A DNA stretch of 64,000 bases, taken from Chryseobacterium sp. FP211-J200. Its GTDB lineage: Bacteria > Bacteroidota > Bacteroidia > Flavobacteriales > Weeksellaceae. The notes beneath the pieces are model-generated. The model was not told where the DNA came from and did no database searches. It was given only the letters and a program-made list of their open reading frames with translations. The DNA lies in NCBI RefSeq assembly GCF_001643375.1, contig NZ_LSHB01000001.1:1-64000 (forward strand), in the 5' to 3' direction. A program made the position numbers and the translations under genes. The stretch's first letter is position 1. Each line of letters starts with the position of its first letter. Shown one piece after another: positions 12,385 through 64,000 of the stretch.

Positions 12385-13782
12385 ATGAGTGACATACAAG
12401 CTACCGATCAAGTCAAAAAGTTTCTGCCATTTATATTGGGAACTGCCATTTTTATGCAAATGCTGGATTCCACAATTCTAAACACTTCATTACCTTCAAT
12501 CGCTAGAGACTTGCAGGAATCGCCGCTTGATATGCAGAACGCGATCATCAGTTATGTTTTGACATTGGCTTTGTTTATGCCGGTCAGCGGATTTTTGGCA
12601 GACAAGTTTGGTACCAAGAAGATCTTTATTCTTTCACTCGTTATATTTTCTTTGGGATCATTATTCTGTTCTTTATCACAGGATCTAACGCAGTTGGTGA
12701 TCTCTAGAATTATTCAAGGGATTGGTGGAAGTTTGATGACGCCTGTTGGGAAATTGGCTTTGATCAGGGCTTTCAACAAAAATGAACTTTTGAAGGCAAT
12801 GAATTTTGCTATTATCCCAGCCTTGATCGGACCAGTGATGGGACCTTTGGTTGGCGGTTATATGGTTGATTATTTGAGTTGGCACTGGATCTTTCTCATC
12901 AATATTCCAATCGGAGTGTTAGGGATTTTTTTAAGTTTAAAATATATGCCCAATTTCAAATCACCCGTCATCGATTTTGACCTGAAGGGATTTCTCATCT
13001 TCGCAATGGCTTCATTATTACTTTCAGTTTCTTTGGAATTGTTGGGAAATGCTCAGAATATCACGCCAGTTCTTTTGGTTTTGGTCTTAGGATTTTTGAT
13101 GTTGTATTTTTATTACAAACATGCAAAAACAGATAATAATCCGATTTTTCCACTGAATCTTTTTCAAGTTAGAACGTTCCGTGTTGGGATTTTAGGAAAT
13201 CTTGCGACAAGGTTGGGAGTAAGTTCTATTCCGCTTTTAGTTCCGTTGATGATCCAGATCGCATACGGACAATCGGCGCTTACTTCGGGTTGGATCGTTG
13301 CACCGATGGCCTTAACCGCGATGTTCGGGAAATCCTATGTTATTGGGATCTTGGATAGATTTGGTTATCGTAAAACTTTGATGACCAACACGTTTGTGAT
13401 TGGTGTTTTGATATGTTGTCTGGCAATTCCAACTATTCAAAGTTCAATTTATTGGTACATTCCGATCTTGTTGGTTTTAGGATTTTTCAATTCCATCCAG
13501 TTTACTTCGATGAACACGATTTCGATTGCGGACTTGCGACCTTACCAGAACAGCAGTGGAAATTCTTTGGTTTCTGTCAATCAGCAGTTTGCGGTCGGAT
13601 TTGGGATTGCGTTTGGTTTGATCGTTTTGAAATTGTTCGAAGGTGATACAACATTCATAAAAAACGAAGTTCACAATGCTTTCCGATACACCTTTTTGAT
13701 TGTCGGATCTCTCACGATTCTCTCTGGTTTCGTTTTCCGGAGACTCAATTTCCGGGATGGCGACAATATGAAATCGGTTTAA
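12385..13782 (+). CDS. MFS transporter, DHA2 (EmrB/QacA-like) drug:proton antiporter family
   Basis: This 465-residue inner-membrane protein has about 13-14 hydrophobic helices. The signature at the first helix (MLDSTILNTSLPSIA, near residue 26) and motif A (GFLADKFGTKKIF, near 73) are those of the DHA2 family, as is motif C-like GPVMGPLVGGYM near 150. Relatives export hydrophobic toxic compounds in exchange for protons, and the substrate cannot be told. No membrane-fusion partner or outer-membrane channel gene is adjacent, so it may act alone or with unlinked partners. It follows the aguA terminator, so it probably has its own promoter. Confidence 0.87.
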   Translation: MSDIQATDQVKKFLPFILGTAIFMQMLDSTILNTSLPSIARDLQESPLDMQNAIISYVLTLALFMPVSGFLADKFGTKKIFILSLVIFSLGSLFCSLSQDLTQLVISRIIQGIGGSLMTPVGKLALIRAFNKNELLKAMNFAIIPALIGPVMGPLVGGYMVDYLSWHWIFLINIPIGVLGIFLSLKYMPNFKSPVIDFDLKGFLIFAMASLLLSVSLELLGNAQNITPVLLVLVLGFLMLYFYYKHAKTDNNPIFPLNLFQVRTFRVGILGNLATRLGVSSIPLLVPLMIQIAYGQSALTSGWIVAPMALTAMFGKSYVIGILDRFGYRKTLMTNTFVIGVLICCLAIPTIQSSIYWYIPILLVLGFFNSIQFTSMNTISIADLRPYQNSSGNSLVSVNQQFAVGFGIAFGLIVLKLFEGDTTFIKNEVHNAFRYTFLIVGSLTILSGFVFRRLNFRDGDNMKSV

Positions 13783-13795
13783 ATTGATATGATTT

Positions 13796-13879
13796 GGGCA
13801 ACTTTTCCGCCTTCCGTTCCCGCTTTTTTTGCCAAGCCTTTCCCAATACAAAAAAGAGCTCCACTCAAGTCGGGTTGCA
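13796..13879 (-). repeat. dispersed ~80-bp structured element, copy A
   Basis: Read on the minus strand it starts GCAACCCGACTTGAGTGG and ends AAGTTGCCC. It matches the element at 63330-63409 almost base for base outside the apical loop. The terminal arms GCAAC/GTTGC pair, and an inner stem TTTTTTG/CAAAAAA closes a variable loop. Relative to the other copy the terminal arms and the inner AC/GT pair have compensatory changes. It lies 13 bases after the MFS stop and 72 bases before the DUF1801 gene, reading antisense to both. Confidence 0.75.
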
Positions 13880-59197: not shown

Positions 59198-59590
59198 TCA
59201 ATCTAAAATTAAAGTAATGTTCTGATGCGATTCTAGAATCTCAATTAAGATTTCGAATAAGGTTTGTCCGTTTCCATCAATCAAATCATCCAGTTTTTGT
59301 TGTATCAATTCAACATTAAAAGGCTTTCCTTGCTTGATTTTGTTTTCGTAAAAAATTTTGGTCGCTTCAAAACCCAGATCCTGCTTTGATTTCTCAGATT
59401 CTCTCCAAATAATTTCACCTTCAAATCCATAAAGAATATCATCAAAACCATCCAAAGTCCCGACTTTCCAATCCGCATCTTTCATCAAGACATCAGAAAC
59501 TTCTTCATAGAATCCTAATAAATCAGAAAAATGGCTGCCATTGATGACAGCCGATTTCTTGTTATTTTTATTTGAAGTATTCGACTCCAT
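59198..59590 (-). CDS. barstar family ribonuclease inhibitor-like protein
   Basis: This 130-residue protein resembles the barstar family: AVINGSHFSDLLGFYEEV near residue 14 corresponds to the start of barstar, WKVGTLDGFDDILYG contains the acidic loop that binds barnase-type RNases, and a C-terminal LILD strand closes the fold. The predicted ATG at 59590 lies inside the 3' end of purL (23-base overlap), so it is translationally coupled. No barnase-type RNase gene is present in the window, so this is an orphan antitoxin-like gene in a housekeeping operon. Confidence 0.75.
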   Translation of the reverse strand: MESNTSNKNNKKSAVINGSHFSDLLGFYEEVSDVLMKDADWKVGTLDGFDDILYGFEGEIIWRESEKSKQDLGFEATKIFYENKIKQGKPFNVELIQQKLDDLIDGNGQTLFEILIEILESHQNITLILD

Positions 59591-62500
59591 TTTTAAAGAT
59601 GTTGTGATAATTCGCAGTTGGAATATTTTTCATCAAACCTTCTGCAAAACGTTCAGGATGTCCCATTCTGCCATAGATTTTTCCACACGGACTTGTGATT
59701 CCTTCTATTCCGAACAAAGAATTATTAGGATTGAAAGGCATTCCGTGAGCAACGTTTCCGTCTAAATCTAAATATTGAGTCGCAATCTGTCCGTTCTCAT
59801 ACAACTTCTGAATTTCCGCTTCTGAAGCCATAAAACGACCTTCACCATGAGAAATTGGAATAGTATAAACCTGGTCTTTCATTCCTTTCAACCAAGGCGA
59901 TTCGTCGTTTAGAACTTTCACGTTGACCATCTGAGAAATATGTCTTCTGATTGCGTTGTGAGCCAAGGTCGGAGAATTTTCGTCCAAGTCCTTAATTCTT
60001 CCGTAAGGCAACAATCCTGACTTGACCAAAGCCTGAAAACCGTTACAGATTCCGATGATCATTCCGTCTCTGTCGAGTAATTCGTGAACAGCATTTCGCA
60101 TTTTTTCGTTCTTCAGAACATTCACGATGAATTTCGCAGAACCATCCGGCTCATCACCCGCAGAGAAACCTCCTGAGAATGCTAAAATCTGTGACGTTTT
60201 GATTTCTTCTACCCACGCATCAATACTTTCGTCCAATAATTGGTGGTTGATATTGATCAAAGGCAAACTGCTTACAATTGCGCCTTCTTTTTGGAAAGCG
60301 TTCAGCGTATCGTATTCGCAATTTGTTCCCGGAAAAATCGGTGCAAATACTTTTGGCTGAGCGATTCCGTGTTTCTTGATGATGATATTTCTTGGGTTGA
60401 TTGAGTTCAGTTTTGAATCTAATTCAACCACTATTTTTTCTCTTTCTACTGTTGAGAAAAGGTTTTCAAATGTATTGGTATTGGCTGCTAATAATTTTTC
60501 AATTGCAAATTCAGAGTCATTGATTTTAAGAACATTAGAATCTTTAACTTCTCCGATGAATTGAAGTGTTACAGTGCTTAATTCTTCTTTGGATTCGATG
60601 ATTAAGCTGCCGACATTTTTCGTTAATAATGATTTTTCTTCAACTGTAATCTCAGCACCCAATCTATTTCCGAAACTCATTTTAGCTAGAGCAACTGCAA
60701 CACCGCCTTCTTTCACGGTCTTCACAGAAACAATTTTGCCGGCTTTGATATTTTCAAAAATCAATTCAAAAACACTCTTTAAATTATCATAGTTTGGAAG
60801 TCCGTTTTCCTGTGGAATATGATTGAAGAAATAGATTTTATTTCCTGCATGTTTAAATTCCGGAGAGATTACATTTTTCTTTTCTCCATTAGCACAAGCG
60901 AAAGAAATCAACGTTGGCGGAACATTCAGATCCTGATACGTTCCACTCATCGAATCCTTACCTCCGATGGCTGCTAAACCAAGGTTAATCTGCGCATCAT
61001 AAGCTCCCAAAAGAGAAGCCAGAGGCTTGCCCCATTTCTCAGGATTCTGACCTAATTTCTCAAAATATTCCTGAAAACTTAATCTTACATTTTTATAATC
61101 GCCACCCATCGCAACGATTTTTGCAACGCTTTCAACGACGGCATAAGATGCTCCCAATAACGAGTTTTGCTTTGAAATTTCAGCATCAAATCCCCAACTT
61201 GCAAAAGAAACTGTTTCAATATTTTTTGCACCTAAAATCGGTAAGGTTTGAGCGCTTCCCTCCATCAAAGTCTGCTGATATTTTCCACCCAAAGGCATCG
61301 CAACCGTAGTCGCACCGATGGATGAATCAAACATTTCTAACAAACCTTTTTGAGAAGCAACGTTTTTATCTGCAAGAATTTTTAAGAAATTCTCTTCGTT
61401 GAAAGTCTGAGTTTCTTCTTTCAATTCATTAAGATGCGTAATCTTAACTTCCTGACTTTTAGAACAACCGTTGGTATCCAGGAATTCTCTTGAAAGATCA
61501 ACAATTTTATCGCCTTTCCAGAACATCTGCATTCTTCCGGAATCTGTCACTTTCGCCACTTCAACAGCGACAATATTTTCAGCTTCACAGAATTTGATGA
61601 ACTGCTCTTTATCTTTTGGTTCAACCACAACCGCCATTCTTTCCTGAGATTCAGAAATGGCAAGCTCAGTTCCGTTCAAACCTTCATATTTTAAAGGTAA
61701 AACATCCAGATTAACTTCCAAAGAATCAGCGATTTCACCGATGGCTACAGAAACACCTCCAGCCCCAAAATCATTTGATTTCTTGATTAGTCTCGTCACT
61801 TCAGGATTTCTGAATAATCTCTGGATTTTACGTTCTTCAACGGCGTTTCCTTTCTGAACTTCAGAACTCATTGTGTGAATCGAAGTTTCGTCCTGTTCTT
61901 TCGAACTTCCGCTTGCTCCACCAACACCATCACGACCCGTTGCACCACCTAAAATGATGATAGAATCGCCAGCTTCAGGCTTTTCACGTCTTACCCAATC
62001 CACTGGAACGGCACCGGTAACGAAACCAACTTCCATTCTTTTTGCTTTGTAGCCTTCATCGTAGATTTCAGAAACCATGGTAGTTGCCAAACCAATTTGG
62101 TTACCATAAGAAGAATATCCGTTTGCCGCCTGTTTTGTGATTGTTTTTTGAGGTAACTTACCAGGTAACGTTTTATCAACAGATTCCAAAACATCAGCAG
62201 CACCCGTCAATCTCATCGCCTGGAATACGAAAGAACGTCCGGACAAAGGATCTCTGATCGCACCACCTAAACACGTTGAAGCACCTCCAAAAGGTTCAAT
62301 TTCAGTTGGGTGATTGTGCGTTTCATTTTTGAATAATAAATACCACGGTTCTTTTTTACCATCATATTCAGCTTCGATCTGGATCGTACAGGCGTTGATT
62401 TCATCAGAAACCACCAAGTTATCCAGGTTACCTGTTTTATGGAAATATCTTCCGCAAACCGTTGCCAAATCCATTAAAGAGATCGGTTTCAATTCGCGTC

Positions 62501-63263
62501 CTAAGAATTTTCTTTTTTCGATATAATCATTGAAAATGGTTTCCAATGTATGTTTAAACTGTCCTTCAAACTCTATATTTGATAGTTCCGTTTCAAAAGT
62601 TGTGTGACGGCAATGATCACTCCAATACGTGTCTAAAACTTTCAGTTCAGTTTCTGTAGGATTTCTCTTCTCAGTTTTAAAATAGTCCTGAATGAATTTT
62701 AAATCATCCAAACCTAATGCAAAACCGTGTGAATTGTAAAAATCGTTAAGCTGTGAATCTGTAAAATCGTTAAAACCTTCATGAATCAAAACTTGTGACG
62801 GCGTTTCTTCTGCTGGAATATTTAAAATTGATAAATCTTTTTCTTGAGATTCCACCTTGTTGATGAGAAGATCTTTGATTTTTGTCAAATCAGATTCAGA
62901 AACACCTTCAAACTCGATGAGTTTACCGCTTCTTACTTTAGATTTCTCATTTTCAGTCAGCAAAGCAATACACTGTTGCGCAGAATCTGCACGTTGGTCG
63001 TATTGTCCGGGCAAAAATTCTAATGCGAAATAAACTCCTACTGCAGGATTTTCTTCGATTAAAATATCAGTAACCGGATCCACGAAAGTACTGTTGACTA
63101 CCTTTTCGAACTCACCATCGTTCAAATTGAAAATATCGTACACATTGTACACTTTTACATTTTTGACCGACGGAACCACCGCTTTTACTTCATCAAAAAT
63201 CTTTGGACTTTCTACATCGAAAATTCCTCTTTTTTCTACGAAAATTCTTTTGTTTTGAGACAT
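59568..63263 (-). CDS. purL: phosphoribosylformylglycinamidine synthase, large single-chain type
   Basis: This 1231-residue enzyme of purine synthesis converts FGAR, glutamine and ATP to FGAM. It is the fused form: an N-terminal PurS-like domain, two AIRS-type synthase halves (NPTEIEPFGGASTCLGGAIRD region near residue 320, written here as NHPTEIEPFGGAST, and GGKDSMSGTY near 770) and a C-terminal class I glutamine amidotransferase with the nucleophile in GICNGFQAL near residue 1090. Residues from there to the C-terminus include the His and Glu of the triad. The 3' end overlaps barstar, and the purB gene lies upstream. Confidence 0.95.
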   Translation of the reverse strand: MSQNKRIFVEKRGIFDVESPKIFDEVKAVVPSVKNVKVYNVYDIFNLNDGEFEKVVNSTFVDPVTDILIEENPAVGVYFALEFLPGQYDQRADSAQQCIALLTENEKSKVRSGKLIEFEGVSESDLTKIKDLLINKVESQEKDLSILNIPAEETPSQVLIHEGFNDFTDSQLNDFYNSHGFALGLDDLKFIQDYFKTEKRNPTETELKVLDTYWSDHCRHTTFETELSNIEFEGQFKHTLETIFNDYIEKRKFLGRELKPISLMDLATVCGRYFHKTGNLDNLVVSDEINACTIQIEAEYDGKKEPWYLLFKNETHNHPTEIEPFGGASTCLGGAIRDPLSGRSFVFQAMRLTGAADVLESVDKTLPGKLPQKTITKQAANGYSSYGNQIGLATTMVSEIYDEGYKAKRMEVGFVTGAVPVDWVRREKPEAGDSIIILGGATGRDGVGGASGSSKEQDETSIHTMSSEVQKGNAVEERKIQRLFRNPEVTRLIKKSNDFGAGGVSVAIGEIADSLEVNLDVLPLKYEGLNGTELAISESQERMAVVVEPKDKEQFIKFCEAENIVAVEVAKVTDSGRMQMFWKGDKIVDLSREFLDTNGCSKSQEVKITHLNELKEETQTFNEENFLKILADKNVASQKGLLEMFDSSIGATTVAMPLGGKYQQTLMEGSAQTLPILGAKNIETVSFASWGFDAEISKQNSLLGASYAVVESVAKIVAMGGDYKNVRLSFQEYFEKLGQNPEKWGKPLASLLGAYDAQINLGLAAIGGKDSMSGTYQDLNVPPTLISFACANGEKKNVISPEFKHAGNKIYFFNHIPQENGLPNYDNLKSVFELIFENIKAGKIVSVKTVKEGGVAVALAKMSFGNRLGAEITVEEKSLLTKNVGSLIIESKEELSTVTLQFIGEVKDSNVLKINDSEFAIEKLLAANTNTFENLFSTVEREKIVVELDSKLNSINPRNIIIKKHGIAQPKVFAPIFPGTNCEYDTLNAFQKEGAIVSSLPLININHQLLDESIDAWVEEIKTSQILAFSGGFSAGDEPDGSAKFIVNVLKNEKMRNAVHELLDRDGMIIGICNGFQALVKSGLLPYGRIKDLDENSPTLAHNAIRRHISQMVNVKVLNDESPWLKGMKDQVYTIPISHGEGRFMASEAEIQKLYENGQIATQYLDLDGNVAHGMPFNPNNSLFGIEGITSPCGKIYGRMGHPERFAEGLMKNIPTANYHNIFKNGVEYFK

Positions 63264-63329
63264 TAGATGTCGGATATTTATTAGATTTATTTTAATTTTT
63301 TCTGAAATTTATTTTGGCATCGAATCTCT

Positions 63330-63409
63330 GCAGCCCGACTTGAACGGAGCTCTTTTGCCGCAACGAAGTGGAGGCAAAAAGCGGGAGTGGAAGGCGGATT
63401 AAGCTGCCC
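63330..63409 (+). repeat. dispersed ~80-bp structured element, copy B
   Basis: The element runs from GCAGCCCGACTTGAACGG to AAGCTGCCC. Terminal arms GCAGC (63330-63334) and GCTGC (63403-63407) pair; AC at 63344-63345 faces GT at 63387-63388; the inner stem TTTTGCC (63353-63359) and GGCAAAA (63373-63379) closes a 13-base loop. Copy A at 13796-13879 (minus strand) shows G-C changed to A-T in the terminal stem and AC/GT changed to GT/AC. It lies between purB and purL and reads antisense to both. Confidence 0.8.
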
Positions 63410-63495
63410 AAAAAATTAAATTTCAATGATCAATACTTTATTCAAACATTAATTGAACAAAGTAAAAAATGCAGCCCAAAAGACTGCATATCATT

Positions 63496-64000
63496 TTATA
63501 CTTTGAGGTCAGACTCCAAACCGATCAACTCGTTGTTCACATCCAAAATTGGCTGAACTTCATTGGCAATGAATTCCTCCGTTTGAATTGGTGCAAAACC
63601 GATGAAGTTTTTCGGGTCAAGAACTTCTTTTAATTTTGATTTATCTAGCTTTAATGAGTCGTCATTCAGGATTCTTTCGATAAGGTCGTTTTCTTTACCT
63701 TCCTCTTTCACTTTTTTAGACGCTTCCATAGAATGAACTCTGATTACTTCGTGGATTTCCTGACGGTCACCACCAGCTTTCACCTCTTCCATAATAATGT
63801 ATTCTGTCGCCATAAAAGGAAGTTCTTCCATAATATGCTTGTTGATCCTGTTTGGATAAACCACGATTCCATTCATGATGTTATTCCAGATCAGTAAGAT
63901 TGCATCAACGGCTAAAAATGCCTGTGGAATTGTTAATCTCTTGTTTGCAGAATCGTCCAATGTTCTTTCAAACCATTGTGTTGAAGCTACCATTGCAGAA
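63496..64000 (-). CDS. purB: adenylosuccinate lyase, C-terminal part (cut by window end)
   Basis: About 168 residues of the C-terminal half are present, and the gene continues past 64000. QWFERTLDDSANKRLTIPQAF is characteristic of the fumarase/aspartase-type lyase fold of PurB (two strings: QWFERTLDDSANKR and TIPQAF), followed by MEELPFMATEYIIM and the helical C-terminal domain. The enzyme cleaves SAICAR and adenylosuccinate, giving fumarate. About 230 bases containing the structured repeat separate it from purL on the same strand. Confidence 0.88.
   Translation of the reverse strand, partial: SAMVASTQWFERTLDDSANKRLTIPQAFLAVDAILLIWNNIMNGIVVYPNRINKHIMEELPFMATEYIIMEEVKAGGDRQEIHEVIRVHSMEASKKVKEEGKENDLIERILNDDSLKLDKSKLKEVLDPKNFIGFAPIQTEEFIANEVQPILDVNNELIGLESDLKV

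Follow-up and report, generated by a model that had tools for sequence, protein, structure and literature searches.

Flavo-1 hairpins in a Chryseobacterium genome: dispersed, oriented and covarying elements with features of a REP-like DNA repeat

Among the described systems closest to the element considered here, the end hairpins of IS200/IS605 show a replication-strand bias, and integron attC sites resemble it as hairpins with unpaired bases and a variable tip. Some REP elements of E. coli lie within 15 nt of stop codons, for which a stop-codon effect is described (PMC12306157, in the part of that article available), and motifs have been assigned to Y1 subclasses 1.2 and 2.6, YIHQNP being that of the Bacteroidetes subclass 2.6 (available part of PMC6006769). 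Flavo-1 was listed in 2010 as a probable RNA (PMC2864571), was described in 2021 as having matches that run in either direction relative to transcribed regions, without distinction, and in many cases lie outside them (PMC9723704), and was still among the most abundant small RNAs in a 2022 review (PMC9029176), as far as the accessible portions of these three publications go. A literature search that covered few subscription journals found no title or abstract describing Flavo-1 as a dispersed DNA repeat.

The window, that is, the whole 64,000-nt stretch of the Chryseobacterium sp. FP211-J200 genome analysed here, contains two copies of one hairpin, A and B, and their neighbouring genes:

12385..13782, + strand: MFS transporter gene (Pfam MFS_1), its stop codon facing copy A
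13797..13878, − strand: copy A, of the same class as copy B (R1 91.9 bits; RF01705 30.9 bits, model 1-76/76)
59568..63263, − strand: purL-like gene (Pfam GATase_5, AIRS_C, FGAR-AT_linker), its start facing the left end of copy B
63330..63408, + strand: copy B, class-1 Flavo-1-like hairpin (R1 81 bits; RF01705 28.2 bits, model 1-76/76)
63409..63420, + strand: AT-rich right extension of copy B (from the base composition of 24 nt beside the element in 161 copies)
63496..64000, − strand: 3' part of the second neighbour of copy B (ORF L112:4497-5924), putatively purB by the label of the sequence-only reading

Copy A follows the MFS stop codon at a distance of 14 bp. Copy B is flanked on one side by the start of the purL-like gene and on the other by the stop of a second gene; the 475-aa ORF of this second gene continues beyond the window end and faces copy B with its stop at 87 bp. 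From the outside in, copy B consists of a GCAGC/GCTGC outer stem, CCG/CGG, an A.G mismatch, CTT/AAG and a GA/GG internal loop, followed further inward by AC/GT, a GGA/GGGA internal loop, GCT/AGC, a bulged C, a T-run facing an A-run, and the variable loop. The class consensus keeps this order from the outer GCAGC/GCTGC through CCG/CGG, CTT/AAG and GA/GG, with an A.G or G.A mismatch, a two-pair stem of AC/GT, GT/AC or GC/GC before the GGA/GGGA internal loop, and at the apex a three-pair stem of GCT/AGC or AAT/ATT, the bulged C, a T-run facing an A-run and a loop very variable in length; the dozen bases adjoining the element on its right are also kept among copies (consensus CAAATAATTATT, 161 copies). 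The sequence-only reading had described A and B as a single hairpin with nearly all non-loop bases in common, and inspection of both copies bore this out, as it did the paired changes in the outer stem (GCAGC/GCTGC in B, GCAAC/GTTGC in A) and in the inner stem (AC/GT against GT/AC) and the unlike apical loops upon a conserved stem. Support for the A/B hairpin comes from covariation and not from stability, since single-sequence folds of either strand of copy A or B were no better than those of shuffles (z −0.41 to +0.61).

Both copies belong to the known bacterial hairpin family Flavo-1 (Rfam RF01705), whose model covers them over its whole length, yet with scores of 30.9 and 28.2 bits against a cut-off of 42. 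The window holds no Rfam match at the gathering threshold, so that the hairpin could look like a new family, a reading ruled out by the full-length match of both copies to a family already in Rfam. Some other R1-class copies (for example C24:49144 and C17:9405, 44.1 bits each) exceed the cut-off, but A and B differ from the high-scoring class in their outer stem and inner module. A BLAST search with copy B matched the genome 48 times, some of these matches being the two arms of a single copy, while R1, a covariance model built from 28 copies of the A/B class (class 1), gave at least 137. RF01705 itself matched at least 127 times, at least 73 of these above the cut-off; 15 of the 73 are also R1 matches, and the remaining 58 bring the genome total to at least 195 places. 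All genome copy counts are lower bounds, the searches detecting only fairly intact copies. Two more genomes of the genus contain at least 103 and at least 63 R1 matches, and a survey of 148 genomes of the family gave a match in at least 124 and one above the cut-off in at least 117, so the further copies sought in the genome and its relatives do exist. Among the matches listed, Flavo-1 was absent at E<=0.001 in 24 of the 148, and matches per relative genome ranged from 0 to at least 29. The element is largely extragenic, 86 of 107 copies having no overlap with a called ORF of at least 80 aa; some of the ORFs overlapped by the other 21 are perhaps chance ORFs.

Compared with REP/BIME (RAYT/REPIN), Flavo-1 is alike in consisting of numerous imperfect hairpins scattered outside genes, some of which lie within 15–20 nt of a stop (for REP, the available part of PMC12306157), but differs in its 80–120 bp, its internal purine loops, the lack of a linked Y1 gene in our searches and its unlike interiors at common sites. 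The 5' GT[AG]G foot of REP is also missing from Flavo-1, for which the left-foot consensus is GAATccGCAGCCC (151 copies). With MITEs and the IS200/IS605 end hairpins it shares a non-coding, oriented character and the replication-strand bias; it differs in that no inverted repeats were seen beyond the Flavo-1 stem, a comparison that on the IS side covers Y1_Tnp only.

Conservation of the pairing was followed in three alignments. The first (A1) comprised the 28 shorter-loop copies out of 44 found with a sequence pattern; all 531 of its 531 cells were paired and six pairs had changed on both sides, for a pattern that fixed many letters and gave covarying positions two letters per side independently. 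None of 500 shuffles reached its paired percentage or covariation score and 12 of 500 reached six both-side changes, but its pair-type count of 8 was below that of every shuffle (mean 10.4). The second (A2), with 134 copies from four genomes, was paired in 97.6% of 2490 cells with 14 pairs changed on both sides, and none of 500 shuffles was as high on any of five measures. The third (A3) comprised 85 copies from other genome records of Chryseobacterium, Kaistella, Halpernia, Flavobacterium and others, Epilithonimonas included, and came from 80 loci found by a 17-mer that fixes only part of the 5' arm; here 99.0% of 1595 cells were paired, 11 pairs had changed on both sides, and 1 of 500 shuffles reached the pair-type count while none reached the other measures. 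Because R1 served to align A2 and A3, both lean towards its structure; slid controls paired at 35–59% in the three alignments. The proposal that the fold is selected is thus supported by copies beyond A and B, in which pairs were kept rather than lost, and the alignments indicate that the hairpin is a real, selected, dispersed element. Covariation alone nevertheless needs care as a proof of selection, because block exchange counts one event many times.

The inner stem occurs in two main states, AT+AT in 65 and GC+CG in 58 of the 134 A2 copies, with six copies in other complete states and five gapped, and these joint counts, taken from the alignment, are free of the two-state limit of the pattern used for parsing modules. 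G-U cells are rare (2/531 in A1, 43/2509 in A2 and 6/1614 in A3); structured RNAs are usually much richer in such pairs. With RNA parameters the fold of the Rfam strand is better than that of its complement (mean −26.9 vs −21.9 kcal/mol, 134 copies), and this holds with DNA parameters too. A strand test on G-U versus A-C cells gave 43:15 in A2 but 6:6 in A3, and was dropped.

The antisense position noted for A and B proved to be general. With genes called by a simple longest-ORF script, and not taken from annotation, 48 copies of the source genome were antisense and 17 sense within tandem gene pairs, the remainder of the 107 copies of both classes being in divergent (21), convergent (20) or edge (1) contexts, and the one-contig genome G027 gave 40 antisense against 12 sense in tandem pairs among 81 copies. 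In G027, 73 of 103 copies are also opposite to the leading-strand sequence as defined by GC skew (p 2.7e-5). For this count the switches in skew were placed at 1.30 and 3.13 Mb; over 30 settings it ranged from 72 to 78 of 103. Antisense placement there was found for 28 of 31 copies with genes on the leading strand and 12 of 21 with genes on the lagging strand, and gene direction and replication strand both act on orientation. Strands in a further genome, G004, fall into two blocks, 7 + and 18 − at 0.6–1.8 Mb and 29 + and 9 − elsewhere, the blocks having been picked by eye. Opposition of most copies to tandem genes and, in one complete chromosome, to leading-strand sequence is new for Flavo-1.

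The position of the element relative to stop codons is equally one-sided. Gene context was obtained for 222 of 230 instances, and among the 161 class-1 copies of six genomes, which like the 52 ortholog pairs discussed below include several genomes per site and are not independent, a stop codon faces the right (3') end of 106. That end lies no more than 20 bp from the facing stop in 49 of these 106, against 16.6 expected from uniform placement in the gap, whereas the left end is within 20 bp of a facing stop in 3 of 42 (7.7 expected). A second set, with context for 71 of 85 matches, gave 20 of 42 within 20 bp (6.4 expected), and 16 of 30 (5.1 expected) outside Epilithonimonas; in the high-scoring Rfam class the effect is weak (8 of 41, 4.9 expected). 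Stop-to-element distances moreover tend to be multiples of three: up to 25 bp they are so in 37 of 53 copies, or in 28 of 43 when each slot is counted once, and by the latter count also in 11 of 17 at 26–60 bp and 13 of 23 at 61–130 bp. The second set showed the same phase in 25 of 40 copies up to 130 bp and in 18 of the 29 that come from outside Epilithonimonas; since by eye at least two gene families occur there more than once, not all of these are independent. No phase of three was seen in the stop distances of the high-scoring class. An AAT/ATT-rich right extension might lengthen in threes, which leaves the longer distances unaccounted for. Both the stop-codon placement and the phase of three are new for Flavo-1. 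Coding use was considered separately and rejected: element lengths by remainder of three number 67, 56 and 39 of 162, and no frame is open throughout.

Comparison across species gives a picture of stable sites with changing contents. None of the 11 same-genus relatives compared has copy B in its purL spacer, as judged by R1 and Rfam over these loci with the short ends of two covered by larger stretches, and spacers at purL are short in G001 and G003. This spacer (window 63264-63495 and orthologues) varies from ~64 bp to ~1.5 kb among relatives, and in G008 holds a Y1_Tnp match (C29:5546-5893). Copy A is common to the source genome and G003. Among the 230 instances, 52 cross-genome pairs occupy the same place by both flanks, all in the same orientation, with no flipped ortholog pair found. 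A comparison of 51 class-1 sites of the source genome with G027, covering 80 of the 103 copies there, showed 22 of the 51 to be occupied in G027. Fifteen G004 sites were placed in G006, three of them aligning poorly or on one side only; an R1 match is present at four of them in G006, and by eye a fifth, L266, is occupied by an element of a different class.

At such common sites the interiors are unlike while the pairs remain intact, a combination that is also new for Flavo-1. Modules could be parsed in 127 of 169 class-1 copies with a pattern allowing only two inner-stem states, which left out 26 of the 52 ortholog pairs; of the 26 parsed, 22 have at least one changed paired module, and 46 of the 48 changes touch both arms. 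Loops, parsed in 37 of the 52 pairs, are alike at four, copy A and L125 having been scored unlike where the eye finds them alike. The nearest loop was in the same genome for 71 of 140 copies, against 49.6 by label shuffling (p 0.002), and near-identical inner hairpins number 19 among 2524 same-genome pairs and 19 among 5477 cross-genome pairs. Three of the latter are at one slot and 16 at different sites, and homogenisation by genome is only partial, as near-identical inner hairpins join different sites across genomes. The 19 same-genome pairs, many of them around one G027 cluster, differ in the outer mismatch pair in 14 cases, 12 of them on both arms. We read the changed interiors as probable block exchange between sites; ectopic recombination through the arms, or partly independent paired substitutions, would be an alternative compatible with these comparisons. 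Two further ideas were rejected: a slot memory of the outer A.G/G.A pair, which has changed in 10 of 26 ortholog pairs (about chance by estimate), and a polar copying tract drawn from flank asymmetry (right flank alignable to a median of 3 bp, left of 41 bp), the right flank being more alignable because it is nearer to genes.

Occupied and empty sites were also compared directly. For two copies in G009 and one in G003, the other stretches compared gave no orthologous flank. In the best occupied/empty pair, L240/L267, the extra sequence amounts to ~157 bp and not to the 80-bp hairpin alone, and by eye comprises the element with its extensions between a stop and the next start, where G006 has only a few bases. 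Empty junctions thus exist, with flanks too diverged for placing ends or a target-site duplication.

The sequence-only reading had suggested a search for transposase-linked copies, which came out negative. The source genome has three Y1_Tnp genes, characterised by motif only as YIENQ and YILNQ (near the subclass 1.2 motif) and YIHQNP (as in subclass 2.6), and searches by motif, R1 and Rfam placed no element within 1.5 kb of any of the three. No transposase recurred at 30 loci from 14 low-copy genomes, where the first 90 residues of each ORF, examined by eye, pointed to ordinary neighbours. Copy B had no match among 72,556 records of plasmids and 50,697 of phages, and of three viral contigs holding a 17-mer of copy B none gave an R1 match; a class-2 pattern gave no match either. 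At L051:1290-2010 (G000:C23), a RAYT-like Y1 gene with YIHQNP is flanked on both sides by a different, GCGCGAGCTTCAAGCTCGTGC-like hairpin.

The best supported reading of these data, held at about an even chance, is that Flavo-1 is a REP-like, non-coding and non-autonomous hairpin that acts mainly as DNA; within this reading the same element also forms a 3'-UTR stem-loop, and in the choice between RNA and DNA, which the sequence-only reading had left undecided, we lean to DNA. It draws on the dispersal over at least 195 places, on conserved unpaired motifs within covarying stems with few G-U pairs, on the antisense bias, the opposition to leading-strand sequence (in one complete chromosome) and the preference for gene 3' ends, and on sites common to species whose interiors are unlike with pairs intact, with an excess of same-genome loops, an inner stem in two states and a copy B missing from 11 of 11 relatives. 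The folded single strand would be what a putative enzyme recognises, new copies would enter ssDNA exposed on the lagging-strand template or behind genes, and copies from other places in the genome would overwrite old sites; a stem-loop would then lie just behind the stop codon in the upstream gene's transcript, as with E. coli REP. Several points run against this REP-like reading: no mobilising enzyme was found at the Y1_Tnp genes and low-copy loci examined, L240/L267 offers no clean insertion with target duplication, and sites are stable across species, which those of a purely mobile element need not be. The antisense bias could reflect selection against the element in mRNA and not insertion, and the stop proximity with its phase of three could mean a host function. 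The merely partial homogenisation by genome and the A2 excess of G-U over A-C cells, not repeated in A3, also count against it. Should the REP-like reading with its own spreading hold, the annotation of many Bacteroidota genomes would change, and there would be an enzyme to discover that rewrites hairpins at fixed positions in the genome; stop-codon placement and reading-frame phase supply simple testable predictions. A possible though unlikely variant has Flavo-1 sites as fixed, oriented docking slots behind stops, their cassettes replaced as blocks from elsewhere in the genome by an ssDNA- or RNA-templated process for which the spacing in multiples of three suggests a link to translation or reading frame.

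Other explanations account for parts of the same evidence. Selection could keep the sites for a 3'-UTR stem-loop useful to the host, in which the complement folds just past the stop and delays ribosomes at termination or shields the end of the mRNA; stop proximity of one end only in two data sets, sites common to species and the precedent of E. coli REP within 15 nt of stops (PMC12306157, in its available part) agree with this, but the complement is the strand that folds less well, the right end of 55 of the 161 copies faces no stop codon, the phase of three persists at 26–130 bp, a range taken as beyond the terminating ribosome's reach, and relatives differ widely in their number of matches, and on balance we doubt it. 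Slightly more doubtful still is a functional RNA, a small RNA or cis-acting leader whose fold is selected in the Rfam-strand transcript, which the strong covariation in all three alignments, the better RNA fold of the Rfam strand, its Rfam type and the 2010 verdict of 'probably' RNA and not cis-regulatory (PMC2864571, available part) would all suit. Against it stand the opposition of most copies to neighbouring genes, the few G-U pairs, the genomes with no copy at E<=0.001 among the matches listed, the strand difference that persists under DNA parameters, and the matches reported as sense or antisense indistinctly and often outside transcribed regions (PMC9723704, in the accessible portion).

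Pairing might instead be kept by mutation rather than by selection, through template switching within an imperfect palindrome during replication. Such a process would give both the replication-strand bias and compensated changes in which G-U intermediates are few; internal mismatches are kept, however, and even swapped from A.G to G.A, while the bulged C and the GGA/GGGA loop persist, which speaks against it because template correction would remove them, and whole loops differ too, so that we regard template switching as improbable. Least probable, to a degree that makes it hardly credible, is mobilisation by a RAYT-type Y1 transposase as in REP/REPIN: the source genome does encode three Y1_Tnp proteins, one with the YIHQNP of subclass 2.6 (PMC6006769, available part), yet none of these genes neighbours an element, the third being flanked by the different hairpin seen by eye, and genomes G005 and G140, with at least 29 Flavo-1 matches each, have no Y1_Tnp match.

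Some copies depart from the two classes or contain other repeats. A third class (L086, L089, L090, L094, L098) has GGG/CCC instead of CCC/GGG in its stem, and its GCAAT/ATTGC-like outer stem seems to enclose a second hairpin after the first. A ~30-nt ACTTCGTCGAACCACTTCGTTAGGTTTG-like sequence, apparently another small repeat nested in Flavo-1 copies, is found within or beside one arm in L039, L044, L045, L110, L175 and L207, and the apical loops of L026, L030, L033, L040, L041 and L043 hold a nested repeat in the form of a GTCATTGCGA...CGCAATGAC-like hairpin.
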